Positions 6,497 through 31,832 of a stretch of 38,239 bases of DNA are shown piece after piece. Numbering within the stretch: position 1 is the first letter of the stretch; each line of letters begins with the position of its first letter. The notes below the pieces were generated by a model. The model was not told the DNA's origin. It saw nothing but the letters and a program-made list of their open reading frames with translations, and ran no database searches. This stretch comes from a virus, in IMG/VR virus record IMGVR_UViG_3300045993_000441, positions 1 to 38,239 of that record. The stretch is one strand, 5' to 3'. The translations under genes and the position numbers were made by a program.

Positions 6497-6513
6497 AACA
6501 AGGAAGAAACATT

Positions 6514-6582
6514 CTCACACAGGCGGAGGGAGGGCCATTGTAAGATTTACCGTAATGGGTAAATCTAGGGGTCAGCCCTTTT
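6514..6582 (+). repeat. Structured dispersed repeat, copy R1
   Basis: The stretch from CTCACAC to CCCTTTT is the reverse complement of copies at 11430-11499 and 31751-31820. Inside it GATTTACC and GGTAAATC form an 8-bp inverted repeat around GTAATG, and AGGGC/GCCCT forms an outer pair. R1 lies between the 6581-6877 stop and the terS promoter motif, so here the element is intergenic, and it is inverted relative to R2 and R3. With R3 it shares about 43 identical bases. Function unknown. Confidence 0.8.
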
Positions 6583-7595: not shown

Positions 7596-7626
7596 GGCTG
7601 AATACCTTGTTGAGTTGACAAGAGCT

Positions 7627-7688
7627 ATAATAACACGACAGGCCAGGATGTACACCACTAAAGTGTAACCGTCCTGGCCAGTTGTAAC
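7627..7688 (-). promoter_or_regulatory. Cassette A: promoter/operator with inverted repeat
   Basis: On the minus strand a -35-like TGTACA (7649-7654) and a -10-like TATTAT (7627-7632) are 16 bp apart. Perfect arms GGCCAGGA (7672-7679) and TCCTGGCC (7641-7648) flank GTTACAC and GTGTAC, which also pair. A further GTTACA lies at 7683-7688. A transcript would start about 25 bases before ATG 7595. The same design recurs in B to E. Confidence 0.6.
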
Positions 7689-7690
7689 GA

Positions 7691-8560
7691 TTAGTTCAGG
7701 TACATCTCCCAGTCGGAGATGTACTCGGCTTTGTTATTCACCATCATGGCGGCGAGCTCCTTGACTGCACGCATCGAGGTGGCAGGCAGGTTGTCCCAGT
7801 TGTCGTACATCCACACGAGGAGTTCAGTCTTCTTGGCGGCACTGAGTTTGTACACATCCACGGACATGGCAATCGAAGCAATCCAACCCCACTGTTCGTT
7901 GCGCTTCAAGTCGAAGGCTTTGTAAGAAACACGGTCACGGATGGCTGCACTGTGCATCTTCTTGGCGGTGTTCAGTTCTTCAGACGGAGCAGTCAGTTGG
8001 CGGTTAGAGGTGATGATGAACCTCATGTTGTCCGTGGGGATTTCGATGCCAACTGAACCAGCCTTTTGAAAGTACTGCAGGGCATCGCCGATGAACTTGT
8101 CATTGCTCGAGGTGGATGACAGGTAGTTCTTAATCATGATGGTGAAGTTCTTGTTGTACGACAGGACATTGCGTTCTTGGTCCAGCGCACCCTTCATGAG
8201 GTTCAGGGCGTCGGCCTCCATGAACAAGGAGTCACAATCATCAATCCAGACGGTAAGGCCGCTGGGGCAGCAAATCAGGCCTTGCATGTGGGCATAGGCG
8301 GCGGTGGCCAACTGAACCACGAAGGCGTTCAGAGAAGCGGCACCTTGAATCTTGACGAGGTTCACATTAGCAGCATCGGCAATGGATTGCACGGTGAACG
8401 TCTTGCCAGCACCAGGAGGGCTGAAGATGTACACGTGGCGCTTGGACTCGATTTCTTGCTTGGTAAGGCCAAGACTGTGCTTCACGAGTTGTTGCAGCTT
8501 CAGGGTGTTGCGAGCACCACCGCTGATGAACTTTTGTTGCTCGGGGCTGAACTTGGTCAT
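7691..8560 (-). CDS. AAA+ ATPase
   Basis: The 289-residue protein has a complete AAA+ core: Walker A SPPGAGKT (residues 47-54), Walker B VWIDDCD (104-110), a sensor-1 asparagine in FIITSNRQ (N186) and an arginine-finger candidate in AIRDRV (R208-R210). A helical C-terminal lid follows (TSMRAVKELAAMM). There is no recognisable HTH, protease or nuclease domain attached. Proteins of this size can remodel DNA-protein complexes, load helicases or clamps, or act with a partner enzyme. No partner is obvious here, and as one of few nucleic-acid genes it could be central to replication. It stands alone behind cassette B. Confidence 0.8.
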   Translation of the reverse strand: MTKFSPEQQKFISGGARNTLKLQQLVKHSLGLTKQEIESKRHVYIFSPPGAGKTFTVQSIADAANVNLVKIQGAASLNAFVVQLATAAYAHMQGLICCPSGLTVWIDDCDSLFMEADALNLMKGALDQERNVLSYNKNFTIMIKNYLSSTSSNDKFIGDALQYFQKAGSVGIEIPTDNMRFIITSNRQLTAPSEELNTAKKMHSAAIRDRVSYKAFDLKRNEQWGWIASIAMSVDVYKLSAAKKTELLVWMYDNWDNLPATSMRAVKELAAMMVNNKAEYISDWEMYLN

Positions 8561-8586
8561 GTCAATCTCCAGTTGGTACAGGAGCT

Positions 8587-8646
8587 ATAATACCACGCCA
8601 GGCCAGGATGTACACTGCTAAAGTGTAACAGCCTCTGGAGTTGTTA
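8587..8646 (-). promoter_or_regulatory. Cassette B: promoter/operator before the AAA+ gene
   Basis: Minus-strand TGTACA (8609-8614) and TATTAT (8587-8592) are again 16 bp apart, with TCCTGGCC at 8601-8608. The upstream arm is degenerate (CTCCAGAGGC at about 8630-8639), so the inverted repeat is weaker than in A and D. The stop codon of the 8644-9180 gene lies inside the upstream edge (GTAACAACT). Confidence 0.55.
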
Positions 8647-9180: not shown

Positions 9181-9203
9181 AGAACCTCCGTGTCAATAGC
9201 TGC

Positions 9204-9265
9204 ATCTTAACACGACAGGCCAGGATGTACATACCTGAAGATGTAACATCCTGGGCACTTGTTAC
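9204..9265 (-). promoter_or_regulatory. Cassette C: promoter/operator before the NUMOD3/HTH gene
   Basis: Minus-strand TGTACA (9226-9231) and TAAGAT (9204-9209) are 16 bp apart. The arms are GCCCAGGA (9249-9256) and TCCTGGCC (9218-9225), with one mismatch, around GTTACA. The -10 element is the poorest of the five. GGAGG before ATG 9180 is a strong ribosome site. Confidence 0.55.
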
Positions 9266-10006: not shown

Positions 10007-10036
10007 GATTTGCTTTCAGAAGTAGTTGATAGAGCT

Positions 10037-10096
10037 ACTATAACACGACAGGCCAGGATGTACACTGCCGAAGCTGTAACATCCTGGCCAGTTGTA
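10037..10096 (-). promoter_or_regulatory. Cassette D: promoter/operator with perfect inverted repeat
   Basis: Minus-strand TGTACA (10059-10064) and TATAGT (10037-10042) are 16 bp apart. Perfect arms GGCCAGGA (10082-10089) and TCCTGGCC (10051-10058) enclose GTTACAGCTTCGGCAG. The core TGTACATCCTGGCCTGTCGT is the same as in A. Confidence 0.6.
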
Positions 10097-11429: not shown

Positions 11430-11499
11430 CGAGAAAGGGCTGCCGCCTGGATTTACCCATTACGGTAAATCTTACAATGGCCCTGCTCCCGTGTGTGAG
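11430..11499 (-). repeat. Structured dispersed repeat, copy R2
   Basis: Bases 11430-11484 are identical to 31751-31805 (55 bp), and the flank is similar up to GTGTGAG. The core carries GATTTACC/GGTAAATC around a 6-base spacer and the outer AGGGC/GCCCT pair. Here it overlaps the last codons and the stop of the polymerase-like gene (ending SHTGAGPL) and extends into the following gap. Confidence 0.85.
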
Positions 11500-12503
11500 A
11501 TTGTCTTTTCTTCAAATTTGACTTTTAGATTTAGCTTGTTCAGTACAGCTGCCTCAAGTTCGGCCTTTGAGGTTCGTGTGTGAGTAAAGAAGCCGTCGTG
11601 AATGAACCAAGCTGGTACTTGTAGCTCCTGTGCCACAACCGTCATAATGGCATCTTCTACTCGCTCGTAGGCAGTGTACAGAGCCCGTGAGATACCCTTT
11701 ACCTTCATCCCTGGGAACAGAACTGAACGGATGGTTCGGTAGTCCTGAACCAGGCCGATGTACAATGGATGCTTCATCAGCCGGTCAGTCCCAATCAAGC
11801 CAAGGAGCCGGCACATTGGATTCTTCGGGCTGGTTGTGGCATACCCGCCATTCGTGATGCTCTGAAGCAAATCCTTGATGACTTCAAGCGGCTCATCCAA
11901 GTCACGTGCTAGCTGAGTGCGGAAGGCCGTCCTGTCAGCCACATAGGCACTCCAAGTCGGCACAGCGTGCTTCTCGCTGAACTTCTTCTGTGTCGGTGTC
12001 AGGGCCTGTTGATACAACTGGAGGATGACAGTGGGCTGCGATGCCTCCATATCGTACCTGAACATCTCCCCGAACTGGGCAATGAACAGCTTTTCGAGCT
12101 TGTCCGTCTTCATCCAGCTCCACCACGGGTAGTACCGATGGCCTGTCTTTTTGAAGGATTCCCGGCTGCAAACCAGGAATGTAAGATTTACCCTTTTTGC
12201 CGTCTCGAGGACAGGGGTGGGAGGAGTACTGAGCTGTGCCCTCAGCTTCTCGCAGAACTCAGTGTTCGGCCGATAGGAGTACGACTTCCCAGTCTCCTGA
12301 GAATAGCTGCCGAACCTTGAAAGTCCCAGACGGAGGTACTGGCCGACTGGTTTTGCTTGATTGCCAAGGAGCTTAGTGAGCTCGACTTGTGAAATCTGCC
12401 GTGGGCCGTAGAGTTCGAGCTCATCAACCAGCTCGAGCAAAGCATTGCACTTCGCTTGTACTCGCGGAAGTGCCAGATTTGGCACCTTTGGTACTTGGAA
12501 CAT
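11472..12503 (-). CDS. Very small A-family/single-subunit polymerase-like protein (343 aa)
   Basis: The C-terminal two thirds carries the three palm/fingers signatures of A-family DNA polymerases and T7-type RNA polymerases. Motif A is FRYDMEASQPTVILQL with D151, motif B is K210-x7-N218-G219 (IKDLLQSITNGGY; T7 RNA polymerase has K-x7-Y-G here) and motif C is WFIHDGFFTH with H302 and D303. The GHRYYPWWSWMKTDKLEKLF segment before motif A resembles the G-R-x-YxP region of polymerase-like proteins on mobile elements. At 343 residues it is less than half the length of T7 RNA polymerase and has no exonuclease domain. It could be a minimal DNA polymerase, a primer-making enzyme or an RNA polymerase. 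AAGGA precedes the ATG, and a 23-bp inverted repeat lies just upstream. Confidence 0.5.
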   Translation of the reverse strand: MFQVPKVPNLALPRVQAKCNALLELVDELELYGPRQISQVELTKLLGNQAKPVGQYLRLGLSRFGSYSQETGKSYSYRPNTEFCEKLRAQLSTPPTPVLETAKRVNLTFLVCSRESFKKTGHRYYPWWSWMKTDKLEKLFIAQFGEMFRYDMEASQPTVILQLYQQALTPTQKKFSEKHAVPTWSAYVADRTAFRTQLARDLDEPLEVIKDLLQSITNGGYATTSPKNPMCRLLGLIGTDRLMKHPLYIGLVQDYRTIRSVLFPGMKVKGISRALYTAYERVEDAIMTVVAQELQVPAWFIHDGFFTHTRTSKAELEAAVLNKLNLKVKFEEKTISHTGAGPL

Positions 12504-13072: not shown

Positions 13073-13708
13073 TTAGCCCCGGTACAGTGCATTGAACGTC
13101 TTGCTGAGGACTTCGGCATCCTTGCCAAGTGGCAGCACAGCGGTGATGAGGGCACCGTCATCCAGCACGACTGCCTTGCCCTTCTCGGCATTCACACCCT
13201 TGGCTGCCACCATGAACCCGAGGGCACGGCCATTGGAAGTCTTCGTGGCATGGATGGTGCGGCCATTGACTTGGCTGATGTCCACCATTGTGAACCGCTG
13301 CCAAGCTGCTCGCTCTTCAGGGTTGCTGAAGCGGCCGTTGTACACGATGTTCGTGATGTCACCAGTGCGGATGTAGGCCTTCATGGCATCGAGCATCAAC
13401 TGTGTCATCTCATCGGTGGTCTCGACAGCTGGCTTTGCCTTGGCTGCCTGAACACGTGATGCGATGTGGGCCTCGTGCTCCTTGCGGAGAGCAGAGATGC
13501 GGGCCTTGATGGTGTCCAGCTCAGCCAGTGCTTCTTCGTGATGGTCGAAGCCATTCTCCAGAATGATGTTCTGGAGGCGACGTTCAACTTGAACGAGGAC
13601 TGGGCCTTGTGGAGTTTCGATGTAGTCACCAGGACGAGCCAGACGATTGGCACGGAGGTGGTACGGGATTGCCTGTGATTGGCGGGCATTGTAAGGTGAT
13701 GTGGCCAA
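13073..13708 (-). CDS. Hypothetical protein (211 aa, probable TTG start)
   Basis: Not recognised. From TTG 13708 the product begins MATSPYNARQSQAIPYHLRA, followed by GDYIETPQGPVLVQVERRLQ, a coiled-coil segment (ALAELDTIKARISALRKEHE) and a C-terminal alpha/beta part with WQRFTMVDISQVNGRTIHAT. I prefer TTG 13708 because AAGGAG lies six bases before it; ATG 13756 is in frame (227 aa) but its AGGA is only one base away, and the first 16 residues look like leader sequence. A TAAATA motif and a small hairpin (CGAGCA/TGCTCG) lie upstream. The downstream 97-aa gene follows after two bases. Confidence 0.6.
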   Translation of the reverse strand: MATSPYNARQSQAIPYHLRANRLARPGDYIETPQGPVLVQVERRLQNIILENGFDHHEEALAELDTIKARISALRKEHEAHIASRVQAAKAKPAVETTDEMTQLMLDAMKAYIRTGDITNIVYNGRFSNPEERAAWQRFTMVDISQVNGRTIHATKTSNGRALGFMVAAKGVNAEKGKAVVLDDGALITAVLPLGKDAEVLSKTFNALYRG

Positions 13709-13790
13709 GATTGGCTCCTTCGGTCGGGGGTTACAACTCAGGACCAAAGTGACCATTTCCTGAGCCGGTCGAGCAACCCTGTGCTCGATG

Positions 13791-17702: not shown

Positions 17703-19988
17703 TCAGCTATTTACCGAAACAGGATACCCAGCCCCGTACTTTTGGCTGAGTTGTGCGACCTTGACACTGAGGCTAGATTGAACCGAACCAAAGTCCGCAG
17801 TCTGCATCGCGGCTGTGTACACCCACGTTTCACTGGTGGTTGTGTACGACTTCTTAACTGTAACTCCGTCCATGACCTGAATGCCGAACCCAGCCCAGTC
17901 AGCATCATTGTTCGTGGTGCTGAAGTCCTTGAGGTCATTGTCAAATCGAGTGCGAGCACTGTAGGAAACTTGGAAGTCGGAGCCAATCTTCTGGCACTTT
18001 GTGTTTGTTGGTGCCCACATCAGAGTGTTGTTCGAGACCATGAACACATCCTCGCCAGTCACCTTATCAAGAGTGCTGCCGATTGTGATGACTTTGTACT
18101 TCTTGGTTGTCATCCGGTCATTGTCAAGCCAGTCCATCCGAAGGATGGCATCATCGAGAAGCACAAAGAGCTCGTTAGCAACGTGAGTGCCAACGTACTG
18201 TTCAGTGCCTTGGCGGCCACGAAGGAGACCAGACAGGGTGTAAGTCTTCGGTGCTGTCAACACAGCATTCTTGAACCCAATGACTTCTTGTCCAACCATA
18301 CAGCGGTTCTTGCCAGCCATCACATCAGCAGCCGAGACAGAAGTCAAGTCATTTGCCTTGATGACAACCGAGATGGTTGTTGTCTCGTCCCAGACGTGGT
18401 AGTCCTTAGAAGGAGTAGCAACCGCGACCAGGCCAAAGGTTGCTTCCTTGTACGTGTTCCCAACCAGGTCATACGAAGCCCCGCCATTCTCAGACACGTA
18501 CACAGAGGCACCTGGCCATCCGGCCTTGTCGTATCCATGAACAGCTGCGTACATCCGAACACCAACATCCTGTGAGTCAAGGTTCGGTGGGTCAATGAAG
18601 AAGGCTTGCGAGTACCCAATCTCTGTCGGCACATTTGTGGAAGCAGGCGGAGTTTGAGCAGTCTCACCAGAGCCTTGAACAGCCTGCTCAGCACCAGCAT
18701 CTTCTGCGATGAACTCGACAAGGGCTTCTGTCTTCTCATTTAGCTGGCGAATGCGAACAAGCCCAACATCTGCCAGTGAGACCACATCGGATGGCTCAAG
18801 GTCCATGTGCTTGTACGAAGTCACAAAGCGGTACTGTGTCCGTTGCAAGTGAGCATTGATGAGCGAGACCTCGACAACTTCCTTTGCCTGGGCGTGTGTC
18901 AGGGTTACCGGAGTTTCGAGCTTCACATCTTGGCCAGTGCTGTACGTGAACAACTCAGCGGTCTGAGTGAACGTGTTGTAGTCCAAGTCAGTAGCTGGGT
19001 ACGTGAGTGTCATTGTCTTCGGCAAATCAATGCCTTGGAAGCGCTTCACTGAGTACGGCGGCTGCAGGTTGCCCTGATTGTCCACAAAGCCAAGGTCCTC
19101 AAGTGGAATTGTCTTCACAACTGTTGCCACACGGGGAATGAACTTCAGGACGCCGCCTGTGTCCACCATGTCGAACTGGTACGTCAATGCTAGCGTACCA
19201 AGAATGGTCCGAATAGAAGTCTGATTGCCGGCAGTGAATTCACAAGCCGAGTTAGGCAGAAGTGAAGCATCATGAGCTACACCTGCCACATCGCAGTACG
19301 AGGCAATGACAGCCTTGATGTCGGGTGCAGTGTAAGTCGTGAGCAAGTAGCTGTCAGAGCCGTTGTACTTCGAGTCAGCACTGCCGTCACCCGAGCCGTC
19401 ACTTGACATCGAGGAGATGATTTTCGAGCCAGCCCAGATGACGCCAGCAGCAATAGCACCAGCCTGAAGAAGGTCACCAATAGAAGCATTCTTGACCCAG
19501 TCGAAGACATCATCCTTGAGGGAGTCGAAGAAGTCCTTGTCGGGCCCAGCCAAAGCTCCTGTGCCCTTCTCTGCCAAAAGGCTCCACGAGGCTGTGTCAA
19601 CACCTGGCTCGTGCTCAGGTGTCACAGACGAAGCAGAGTTGTTGTCAGTGGTACAAATATATGTGGCGCCATTGTGAGCAACAACTGATGCCAATGGGTT
19701 TGTATCTGACTGAGCCACGTAGTCAGCACCAATTGCCCATTCACCTTCCCACTTGAAGCCCCAGCCGTCCTTACCAATGACACCATCAGCACCTGCGGGT
19801 CCTGGTGGGCCAGCTGGTCCTGGTACTGAAATAGTGGTACTTGTGCTTGTTCCAGCACCACCAATGACAACTGTTGTGCTCGATGCCCCGCAGCTCTCAA
19901 ATCGTTCACCTGGAGGATTGAGTGTCTTTGTAGCCGGGGTACTAGTGTTTGCTGACTTGGTCTTCTTAGTTGGTTTTGGGCAGTACAT
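17703..19988 (-). CDS. Tail tip hub protein, C-terminal part (gene transfer agent gp15/Phage-tail_3 type)
   Basis: The 761-residue protein carries the signature LLRGRQGTE (residues 588-596), typical of GTA gp15-like and lambda J-like hub proteins. An unusual N-terminus precedes it: a low-complexity Thr/Ser/Lys stretch, a collagen-like GPAGPPGPAGADG (58-69), a carbohydrate-module-like segment (WEGEWAIGADYVAQSDTNPL) and a hydrophobic, membrane-like helix (about 174-192, LQAGAIAAGVIWAGSKI). Residues 215-430 look like the beta-rich hub domains. The N-terminal hub domain found in long homologues is missing here but matches the separate gene at 22685-23275. GGAGAG lies before the ATG, which follows the 19991 stop by two bases. 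Confidence 0.75.
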   Translation of the reverse strand: MYCPKPTKKTKSANTSTPATKTLNPPGERFESCGASSTTVVIGGAGTSTSTTISVPGPAGPPGPAGADGVIGKDGWGFKWEGEWAIGADYVAQSDTNPLASVVAHNGATYICTTDNNSASSVTPEHEPGVDTASWSLLAEKGTGALAGPDKDFFDSLKDDVFDWVKNASIGDLLQAGAIAAGVIWAGSKIISSMSSDGSGDGSADSKYNGSDSYLLTTYTAPDIKAVIASYCDVAGVAHDASLLPNSACEFTAGNQTSIRTILGTLALTYQFDMVDTGGVLKFIPRVATVVKTIPLEDLGFVDNQGNLQPPYSVKRFQGIDLPKTMTLTYPATDLDYNTFTQTAELFTYSTGQDVKLETPVTLTHAQAKEVVEVSLINAHLQRTQYRFVTSYKHMDLEPSDVVSLADVGLVRIRQLNEKTEALVEFIAEDAGAEQAVQGSGETAQTPPASTNVPTEIGYSQAFFIDPPNLDSQDVGVRMYAAVHGYDKAGWPGASVYVSENGGASYDLVGNTYKEATFGLVAVATPSKDYHVWDETTTISVVIKANDLTSVSAADVMAGKNRCMVGQEVIGFKNAVLTAPKTYTLSGLLRGRQGTEQYVGTHVANELFVLLDDAILRMDWLDNDRMTTKKYKVITIGSTLDKVTGEDVFMVSNNTLMWAPTNTKCQKIGSDFQVSYSARTRFDNDLKDFSTTNNDADWAGFGIQVMDGVTVKKSYTTTSETWVYTAAMQTADFGSVQSSLSVKVAQLSQKYGAGYPVSVNS

Positions 19989-23988: not shown

Positions 23989-24831
23989 TTATCGGAAGTT
24001 GACGTCGGTGTTGATGTGTGGGAAACCACCAAAGTTGAGGACGTTGCTGAACTTCGTTTTGCACGTGTCGAGGGTCTTGTCACATCCTGCCTTTACAGTG
24101 AATGTGTCCCCAACAGCAAACGTCTTCATTGTGGGTAGCACGAAGTCGAAGGTATCAGAAGCATCCTTCTTGATTGGGTACGTCAACCCATTCAGGATGC
24201 CAGAGGTAAATGTGATTGAGCCGTTGCTGAAGTACCCATCAGGCTGAGCAGCCGCAGCACCGCTGTACGTGAGCTTCCATTTTGGTGTTACAACTGTGGC
24301 TACAGTACCGACAAATGTGTACGAAGCACTGCTCAGGGTGCAAGCACCAACCTTGCCAGCGGTGACTGAGCCAAAGAGCTCATGGCGGCAAGAGGCAGTG
24401 TAAGTCTGGCCAACATTCAGCTCGAGTTGCTTCATGAAGGACATGATTTCGGCCTTGAAGGCCGTTTCATCCCAGTCAATGCTCGCAATGCGACCAAAGA
24501 AGGTTACCACATGGCCGTACTCAGGATGAACCCAAGAGCCCCACGATGCCTCGACTTCAGCATCATCGAACACACCGCCAAGCAAGTCAGCCTCTGGCAC
24601 ATCCACAATGGCAGCACCTGTTTGCTGCGAGGAGACTTGGACATCGGATGTAGCCACGTACTCAACAGCCGCCAGAGCAGGTGCTGGGCTGTACAGCACA
24701 CCATCAATGGTCAATGCTTGGTCGTGGTCAGTAAAGGCATGAACTGTGCCGTTTGTGCACGAAATCTTGATGAAGCGGGCAATCGTGCCAGCATCAATCT
24801 CGGCCTTCAGGTTCGTTGAAATGGTTCGCAT
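23989..24831 (-). CDS. DUF2163/BR0599-type tail protein
   Basis: The 280-residue product begins MRTISTNLKAEIDAGTIARF and continues with ISCTNGTVHAFTDHDQALTI, the usual start of DUF2163 proteins of gene transfer agents and siphophages. It ends with the C-terminal signature AGCDKTLDTCKTKFSNVLNF-GGFPHI of the BR0599 domain. It is a tail tip component between the distal tail protein and the peptidase, as in the GTA gp12-gp13-gp14 order. ATG 24831 follows the previous stop by one base; an upstream in-frame start at 24882 would overlap DUF2460. Confidence 0.85.
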   Translation of the reverse strand: MRTISTNLKAEIDAGTIARFIKISCTNGTVHAFTDHDQALTIDGVLYSPAPALAAVEYVATSDVQVSSQQTGAAIVDVPEADLLGGVFDDAEVEASWGSWVHPEYGHVVTFFGRIASIDWDETAFKAEIMSFMKQLELNVGQTYTASCRHELFGSVTAGKVGACTLSSASYTFVGTVATVVTPKWKLTYSGAAAAQPDGYFSNGSITFTSGILNGLTYPIKKDASDTFDFVLPTMKTFAVGDTFTVKAGCDKTLDTCKTKFSNVLNFGGFPHINTDVNFR

Positions 24832-24832
24832 C

Positions 24833-25435
24833 TTAGTGCTCGAAGACTTCAACCAGGCTGATGTCACCCAGATTGTCGCCATAGTTGCTGTTGTCAGAGT
24901 TCAGGACTTCGGAGCTCCAGGACATCGAAGCCTGGTCAAAGCGAGCGCAGTGGTAGAAAGTCCCGCTGATTGTGATGCCAGAAGTAGCACCAGCCACAAT
25001 GATGGTTGGCACATTGTTCGTGTAAGCCTGCGTGTACGAGACTGGAGTGCCAGAAGCCTTGACTACGATGTCACCGCCAAGGTGGAACACTGGGTGCGTG
25101 TCAGCACTCCCGCGTGTAGTCAGGTAGAACTTGTTGTCAGCGCCTGAGTACGTGAGTGGAGTGTTCACCCACGTGCACAAGTCCGGGTCCTGGTACTTGA
25201 AGGAGTTCAGGCCGAACTGAGCTACATCCGTGAAGAACAGAGCGATAGCCTTTCGGTCCACTGAGCTCAGAATGCGAGCAGGGTACACCCAAGAGCTGAT
25301 GAAGTTCTTCAGCTTCTTGATGCGGTACTCGGAGTTCCCATTGCCAACAATCGTTGTTGGTGCTGAGATTGTCTTTCGCAGCCCGTGAATCAGACGAAGG
25401 TTAGTCGTTGGGAAGAGTGTATTGACGAATGCCAT
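24833..25435 (-). CDS. DUF2460 distal tail protein
   Basis: The 200-residue product has the DUF2460 layout: an LRLIHGLRKTISAPTTIVGN segment, then SEYRIKKLKNFISSWVYPAR and FFTDVAQFGLNSFKYQDP, which corresponds to the family's R-x-x-W and F-x-x-G-x-x-x-F-R-F-x-D patterns. It is the GTA gp12-like distal tail ring that links tube to tip. It follows the tape measure gene by two bases and precedes DUF2163 by one. Confidence 0.8.
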   Translation of the reverse strand: MAFVNTLFPTTNLRLIHGLRKTISAPTTIVGNGNSEYRIKKLKNFISSWVYPARILSSVDRKAIALFFTDVAQFGLNSFKYQDPDLCTWVNTPLTYSGADNKFYLTTRGSADTHPVFHLGGDIVVKASGTPVSYTQAYTNNVPTIIVAGATSGITISGTFYHCARFDQASMSWSSEVLNSDNSNYGDNLGDISLVEVFEH

Positions 25436-31515: not shown

Positions 31516-31832
31516 GGGGCCTTCTTTCTGTAGGCATTCAAAGCTGCCTCAAGTTCGAGACCCCAAGCTTGGAGTCGCTTGATTGTCTCACGATGCAGTT
31601 GAACGATTGTACCTGGGTCCATGTCCTTCGTGATGGCAAGGACAGGTAGCTCAGGTCTATTTACCGTCGGAGGCTCTGGAACATCGGCTACACGGTACTC
31701 AATCTGTGGCTGAGTGGCACAACCTACAACCGAGAGAGCGAAAATAAAAGCGAGAAAGGGCTGCCGCCTGGATTTACCCATTACGGTAAATCTTACAATG
31801 GCCCTCCCTCCGCGTGTGAGGAGATTTTTCAT
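31512..31832 (-). CDS. Outer membrane lipoprotein spanin (Rz1-like), N-terminus extended by a repeat
   Basis: The product has a lipobox, SVVGC (C38), after a hydrophobic segment (PFLAFIFALS), so the mature protein would start at C38 in the outer membrane. It is proline-rich (VADVPEPPTVNRPELP), like o-spanins, and short. The start at 31832 overlaps the i-spanin stop (ATGA), and an internal ATG at residue 18 (MGKSRRQPFLAF) would give a more canonical signal peptide. Residues about 5-28 are encoded by the dispersed repeat R3. It would fuse the outer and inner membranes with the i-spanin at the last step of lysis. A GGTAAATA motif lies in the coding sequence (31658-31665). Confidence 0.7.
   Translation of the reverse strand: MKNLLTRGGRAIVRFTVMGKSRRQPFLAFIFALSVVGCATQPQIEYRVADVPEPPTVNRPELPVLAITKDMDPGTIVQLHRETIKRLQAWGLELEAALNAYRKKAP
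31751..31820 (-). repeat. Structured dispersed repeat, copy R3
   Basis: 55 bp (31751-31805) are identical to R2 and about 43 bp to the inverted R1. This copy lies inside the 5' end of the o-spanin gene, where it encodes residues about 5-28. The inverted repeats GATTTACC/GGTAAATC and AGGGC/GCCCT are retained, although the element is translated here. Confidence 0.85.

Follow-up and report, generated by a model that had tools for sequence, protein, structure and literature searches.

The 38,239-nucleotide stretch of viral DNA analysed here (IMG/VR record IMGVR_UViG_3300045993_000441; hereafter the window) comes from a small tailed phage and encodes a 343-residue protein, P0001. Sequence comparison places this protein in the PolA/T7-RNAP superfamily as a minimal and divergent TV-Pol relative. 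I lean, with a little more belief than doubt, towards reading P0001 as an exonuclease-less minimal A-family-type polymerase and TV-Pol relative that starts replication as a primase or primase-polymerase, acting at words repeated inside its own gene. Its nearness to TV-Pol would make it a known kind of enzyme in an unusual minimal setting, while the idea of an origin within the gene would be new. Such a very short A-family-type enzyme, in a small phage without another replication polymerase, offers a compact case in which to test the superfamily's minimal core. The coordinates of all features are collected in Table 1.

Table 1. Features of the polymerase gene and of its repeated element, in window positions.
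Feature	Position	Strand	Basis
TV-Pol-like polymerase gene, P0001, 343 aa	11472..12503	-	ORF, alignment and profile evidence
N-terminal region, residues 1 to ~100, putative winged-helix-like pattern	12204..12503	-	low-confidence models
Internal copy of word TGTAAGATTTACC, codons 104-108, between N-terminal region and palm	12180..12192	+	repeat listing
R123 codon, presumed template-strand Arg of beta-hairpin	12135..12137	-	alignment, divPolA2 spacing
D151 codon, motif A	12051..12053	-	ORF and alignment
K210 codon, motif B (K-x7-N218-G219)	11874..11876	-	alignment
H302-D303 codons, motif C (FIHDGFF)	11595..11600	-	ORF and alignment
70-bp repeat GATTTACC-GTAATG-GGTAAATC, contains TGTAAGATTTACC, overlaps gene 3' end	11430..11499	-	repeat search
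Inverted copy of repeat element, upstream of terminase small subunit gene	6503..6581	+	repeat search
Direct copy of repeat element, at start of spanin-like gene	31751..31820	-	repeat search

The reading frame is open on the minus strand only, the plus strand being full of stops, and its extent as well as the residue numbers of D151, K210, N218-G219 and H302-D303 agree with a preliminary description of this DNA. Two homologues were found, which when aligned are 22-26% identical to P0001: P0002 (386 aa) in phage G001 was the single homologue from a viral-contig search, where it matched at 28%, and P0003 (358 aa) in the terminase relative G002 was the second (HMM E 1.7e-9). Both keep Y150-D151 of motif A (D151 lies within YDMEASQPTVILQL), K210-x7-N218-G219 and H302-D303. 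Invariant positions in the three-protein alignment include R123, Y150, D151, P157, F194, R195 and K210, as well as N218, Y279, E283, H302, D303, G304 and F305. Since Y150, D151, K210, N218, H302 and D303 are invariant despite such low identity, the landmarks are not attributable to chance. The preliminary description had seen A, B and C motifs and nothing else; the motifs are present, but residues 1 to ~100 make up a region of their own and a fourth landmark is added by R123.

TV-Pols are primase-like enzymes found on plasmids, transposons and other mobile elements. Iyer, Abhiman and Aravind described the family in 2008 as superfamily A polymerases reduced to their minimal core, with thumb helices, a beta-hairpin Arg, a two-Asp palm and RxxxK fingers; its genes occur beside transposases (PMC2579912). 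Microcystis phage Ma-LMM01 was retrieved, where one ORF, gp030, has the landmark order and is presumably the Ma-LMM01 TV-Pol meant in that paper (PMC2579912), and it led to two Polaromonas plasmid proteins, the pH8NP1 and pW9NP1 ORFs. When 855 ORFs were ranked with a TV-Pol-only profile made from these three outside proteins, the first three places went to P0003, P0001 and P0002 (E 6.2e-13, 2.3e-4 and 0.012), and it is because exactly these three come first that the polymerase reading holds. An HMM of the Polaromonas pair returned the same proteins at E 5.8e-12, 1.2e-5 and 0.0015. In pairwise BLAST, P0003 matched the pH8NP1 protein across the whole palm region (26% of 213 aa, E 2.4e-8) and P0001 matched it at E 1.6e-5, both being two-sequence E-values, and with neither Polaromonas protein did any of 1000 shuffles each score as high as P0001 or P0003; P0001 against gp030 gave no real match. 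At the level of sequence, these comparisons establish homology of P0001-P0003 to TV-Pol-type proteins. The profile ranking and the conserved catalytic residues likewise support the earlier assignment to a minimal, exonuclease-less polymerase of the PolA/T7-RNAP superfamily, with the link to PolA and T7 RNAP themselves running through TV-Pol only.

The main landmarks are in register with the Ma-LMM01 and Polaromonas proteins, and D151 and D303 align by sequence with their palm Asp pair. P0001 shares with these TV-Pols the order Arg, motif A Asp (YD), K-x7-(N/Y)-G and HDG, the lack of a nuclease, and the position of only recognisable polymerase gene of a small element. R195, 15 residues before K210, is common to P0001 and the Polaromonas proteins, and R123 sits at the Polaromonas SGR-x-Y segment, with the exact pairing uncertain owing to aligner gaps. 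The Arg of the fingers RxxxK is absent (the residue at -4 to K210 is L), as it is, in the alignment, from gp030 and both Polaromonas proteins. Unlike TV-Pols, P0001 has a shorter N-terminus, in-gene repeated words, and no fused or adjacent D5 helicase. The gp030 gene adjoins transposase genes and the pW9NP1 polymerase gene lies directly upstream of repA; no D5 helicase, resolvase or transposase was recognised among the window proteins scanned, which included part of the small ORFs. Because of the missing RxxxK Arg and the lack of a linked helicase or transposase, P0001 was not filed as a canonical TV-Pol.

Searches of Pfam, PHROGs, NCBIfam and PDB with P0001-P0003 gave no match, antibody and cap-repeat matches being judged chance. 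The PF00476 profile (Family A DNA polymerase) found no match at E 10, with its control positive in 10 genomes, while PF00940 (T7-type RNA polymerase) found none in a search that had no positive control. Direct comparison with T7 DNA and RNA polymerases yielded nothing in register, and AlphaFold runs on two and three sequences reached pLDDT 46 and 43, too low to judge a palm or thumb fold. I also considered divPolA2, found in barbaviruses, ICP1 and others (PMC11348598), as the closest family. These phage proteins of about 430 aa have a palm and, like P0001, a unique N-terminal domain and no exonuclease, but, unlike the window phage, their phages own a regular polymerase too (PMC11348598). The landmarks fit, with 28 residues from R123 to the motif A Asp in P0001 and the same R-to-D spacing in divPolA2, several members of which also have K-x7-N; the profile comparison fell short of significance (E 0.037-0.085) and was outscored, over 29 columns, by that with an unrelated TerL profile. 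A composite pattern set on divPolA2 proteins, R-x(22-32)-hD-x5-P-[STR]-...-K-x7-N-...-HD, matched P0001-P0003 and no other of the 855 ORFs (113 of them of at least 250 aa). Shuffled copies of the three gave 0, 2 and 1 matches per 20,000 each, counts that are indicative only because the spacing ranges were picked with the target in view.

As the preliminary description had noted, the P0001 gene is the sole polymerase-like gene seen in the window genome, whose other recognisable replication-type genes are an AAA+ ATPase and endonuclease VII; no phage helicase and no processivity factor were recognised. The terminase is 67-73% identical in four phages, G002 among these. In both the window and G002 the polymerase gene sits in the slot that separates the tail-fibre genes from the terminase; in G002 it adjoins homologues of window gene 13073-13756 and of the window endonuclease VII. 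An HMM search found no homologue in the three other terminase-sharing contigs, G003-G005. G003 ends at the terminase, while the entire tail fibre-to-terminase stretch is present in G004 and G005 and the polymerase gene is not there; since these two are close by terminase, the gene appears dispensable in the wider lineage. Scans with P0001, A1, P0002, P0003, the FIHDGFF pattern and the terminase placed the gene in two phages and in no further ones, and scans of bacterial genomes found no homologue.

Pol I selects dNTPs via E710 (motif A Asp+5) and F762 (motif B Lys+4). Assuming no gap, the E710 equivalent is Q156 in P0001, K in P0002 and A in P0003, so that none of the three has Glu at Asp+5, and the F762 equivalent is Q214, Q and N, respectively. 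The absence of these dNTP-selecting residues makes ribonucleotide use possible and suggests that P0001 may accept ribonucleotides. Among relatives, CCPol acts together with MP, its partner, in priming de novo; it retains both E710 and F762 and favours dNTPs (PMC7581432). Likened here by description, the CCPol-MP primase of SCC elements (PMC7581432) and the PolA-SSB primases (PMC10061031) are mobile-element A-family polymerases able to prime, as P0001 may be, and proposed TV-Pol relatives; P0001 differs in that its E710 and F762 equivalents are absent as aligned. By analogy, the primer-synthase role raised in the preliminary description would fit these nearest relatives, TV-Pol and CCPol-MP (PMC7581432). 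An SSB-like partner as in the CCPol-MP and PolA-SSB systems was not identified, and G001 24434-24928, considered for such a part, was a guess with no family match.

The N-terminal region shows the order helix-helix-strand-strand-helix in both of two low-confidence models, and HMM comparison links the N-termini of P0001-P0003 to each other only. A 162-aa ORF beside the terminase of G005 (19182-19670; L040:4185-4673), tried as a stand-alone version of this region, was not significant (E ~0.5).

All 12-mers occurring at least three times were listed per phage, and each of the three phages turned out to have a word of its own that occurs inside the polymerase gene. The rest of the listing consisted of words from tail-fibre genes or intergenic stretches, words containing TAAATA, and chance words scattered over the genome. 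The window word TGTAAGATTTACC recurs at the gene 3' end, inverted upstream of the terminase, and at the spanin gene. In G001, GGCGGAAGTTAC lies at codons 86, 98 and 110, ~36 bp apart and in a single orientation, with CGGAAGTTACCA inverted at the gene 3' end, and all sites with at most 3 mismatches from the 16-base GGAAGTTACCACCATT are confined to the gene and its 3' end. The G002 word ATGTTGATACTA occupies codons 5, 112 and 198, with two further copies upstream of the terminase and another two in the spanin gene. All three phages have a copy in the codons for residues ~86-112, which separate the N-terminal region from the palm; the words differ by phage. When synonymous codons of the G001 gene were shuffled 2000 times, no shuffle contained any 12-mer three times, and the known TV-Pol loci had no such in-gene repeats, only pairs of 10-mers. 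The lambda ori lies inside gene O, and by analogy the present genes, candidate initiator genes, likewise have repeats in the part coding for the linker that follows a putative DNA-binding domain at the N-terminus. The likeness goes no further than analogy; O has no polymerase domain.

Phage DNA copying may start with P0001, given the lack of another recognisable polymerase, the TV-Pol kinship and the origin-like words in the gene. The winged-helix-like N-terminus would bind the phage-specific repeated words, which lie partly inside its own gene and would form the origin; the palm would then lay down a short primer at this in-gene origin, and host helicase and Pol III would copy the genome. I infer the DNA binding by the N-terminus, the origin function, the primer synthesis and the reliance on the host replisome, while the TV-Pol homology, the conserved catalytic residues, the in-gene words in three phages and the conserved slot in the window and G002 were observed. 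The narrower proposal, that a single 343-residue protein recognises an origin in its own gene and also makes the primer, possibly of RNA, by an A-family palm, is tentative and to my mind rather doubtful. Most known primases fall into two families that are unrelated to each other, with A-family priming enzymes a recent and thinly studied third kind; if true, the proposal would amount to a phage protein that is initiator and primase in one, shares no ancestry with DnaG or AEP primases, and has recognition words varying by phage. Since the recognition word has changed and the N-terminal region has diverged together across the three phages, origin recognition is open to direct testing.

Other roles for the enzyme would account for part of these observations. 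P0001 could be the phage's own replicative DNA polymerase and copy much or all of the genome, as the only polymerase-like gene seen there and by comparison with Sputnik, where TV-Pol is the sole replicase candidate (PMC2579912). This is improbable for a protein of 343 aa with no exonuclease, processivity factor or phage helicase recognised, and terminase-related phages manage without the gene. I give similarly little credence to a repair, translesion or other accessory polymerase that is not used for initiation. Such a function was one option suggested for divPolA2 (PMC11348598) and would suit a gene that is dispensable in the lineage, but the divPolA2 phages carry a second, regular polymerase, none of which was found in the window, G001 or G002, and the in-gene repeats and the DNA-binding-like N-terminus would be left unexplained. 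The repeats themselves may, with a TV-Pol relative beside them, be regulatory or mobile palindromes (operators or terminators, for instance) that have spread to three or more sites. The window element is palindromic and ends in GCCCTTT, and the words of the window and G002 also occur far from the gene, at matching positions upstream of the terminase and in the spanin gene, so that an origin alone does not explain the distant copies. Against this explanation, which I regard as unlikely, all word copies of G001 are at the gene, where three share one orientation and a spacing of ~36 bp, and the linker-codon position recurs with unrelated words.

The preliminary description had also raised an RNA polymerase reading TAAATA motifs. 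Within the window, TAAATA occurs at 12 sites between 1542 and 33181, all on the minus (coding) strand and often just upstream of genes, compared with 3.0 expected (4-fold), and it precedes the same late genes in G002-G005. The motif resembles T4 late promoters, and late promoters of the TATAAATA type are usually read by a gp55-type sigma. The 4-fold enrichment, the absence of a recognised gp55-type sigma from the window, the inclusion of T7 RNAP in the superfamily and the missing Glu steric gate of Pol I would all suit a transcribing enzyme. The idea was nevertheless not borne out and is very improbable: G004 and G005, which are without the protein, retain the motif ahead of the same late genes, P0001 has no T7-type promoter-recognition domain, and G002 encodes a T4 gp55-type late sigma (phrog_234, E 1.7e-29) just downstream of its polymerase homologue (L033:11178-11597). 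A sigma-directed host polymerase would be the simpler reader of TAAATA, even though the window yielded no sigma of this type.

Several further repeats and genes were seen. The word TGTATGGACAATG occurs in G004, which is without the polymerase gene, as two direct and two inverted copies flanking an intergenic stretch (L037/L038; 20141, 20407, 20729 and 20754). A 66-bp repeat whose arms are inverted GGCCAGGA/TCCTGGCC occurs four times between early genes of the window (7621-7686, 8581-8646, 9198-9263 and 10031-10096), and a comparable element, TGTACA...CTAAAGTGTAAC, is repeated between the early genes of G005. The window AAA+ ATPase (7691-8560, minus strand) lies 2.9 kb from the polymerase gene, is absent from five related contigs, and is 43% identical to a protein of the Burkholderia jumbo phages FLC6 and FLC8. 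Lastly, the contig ends (2-107 and 38134-38239) share a 106-base stretch at 92% identity, indicating either a circular genome or a tail-gene repeat.
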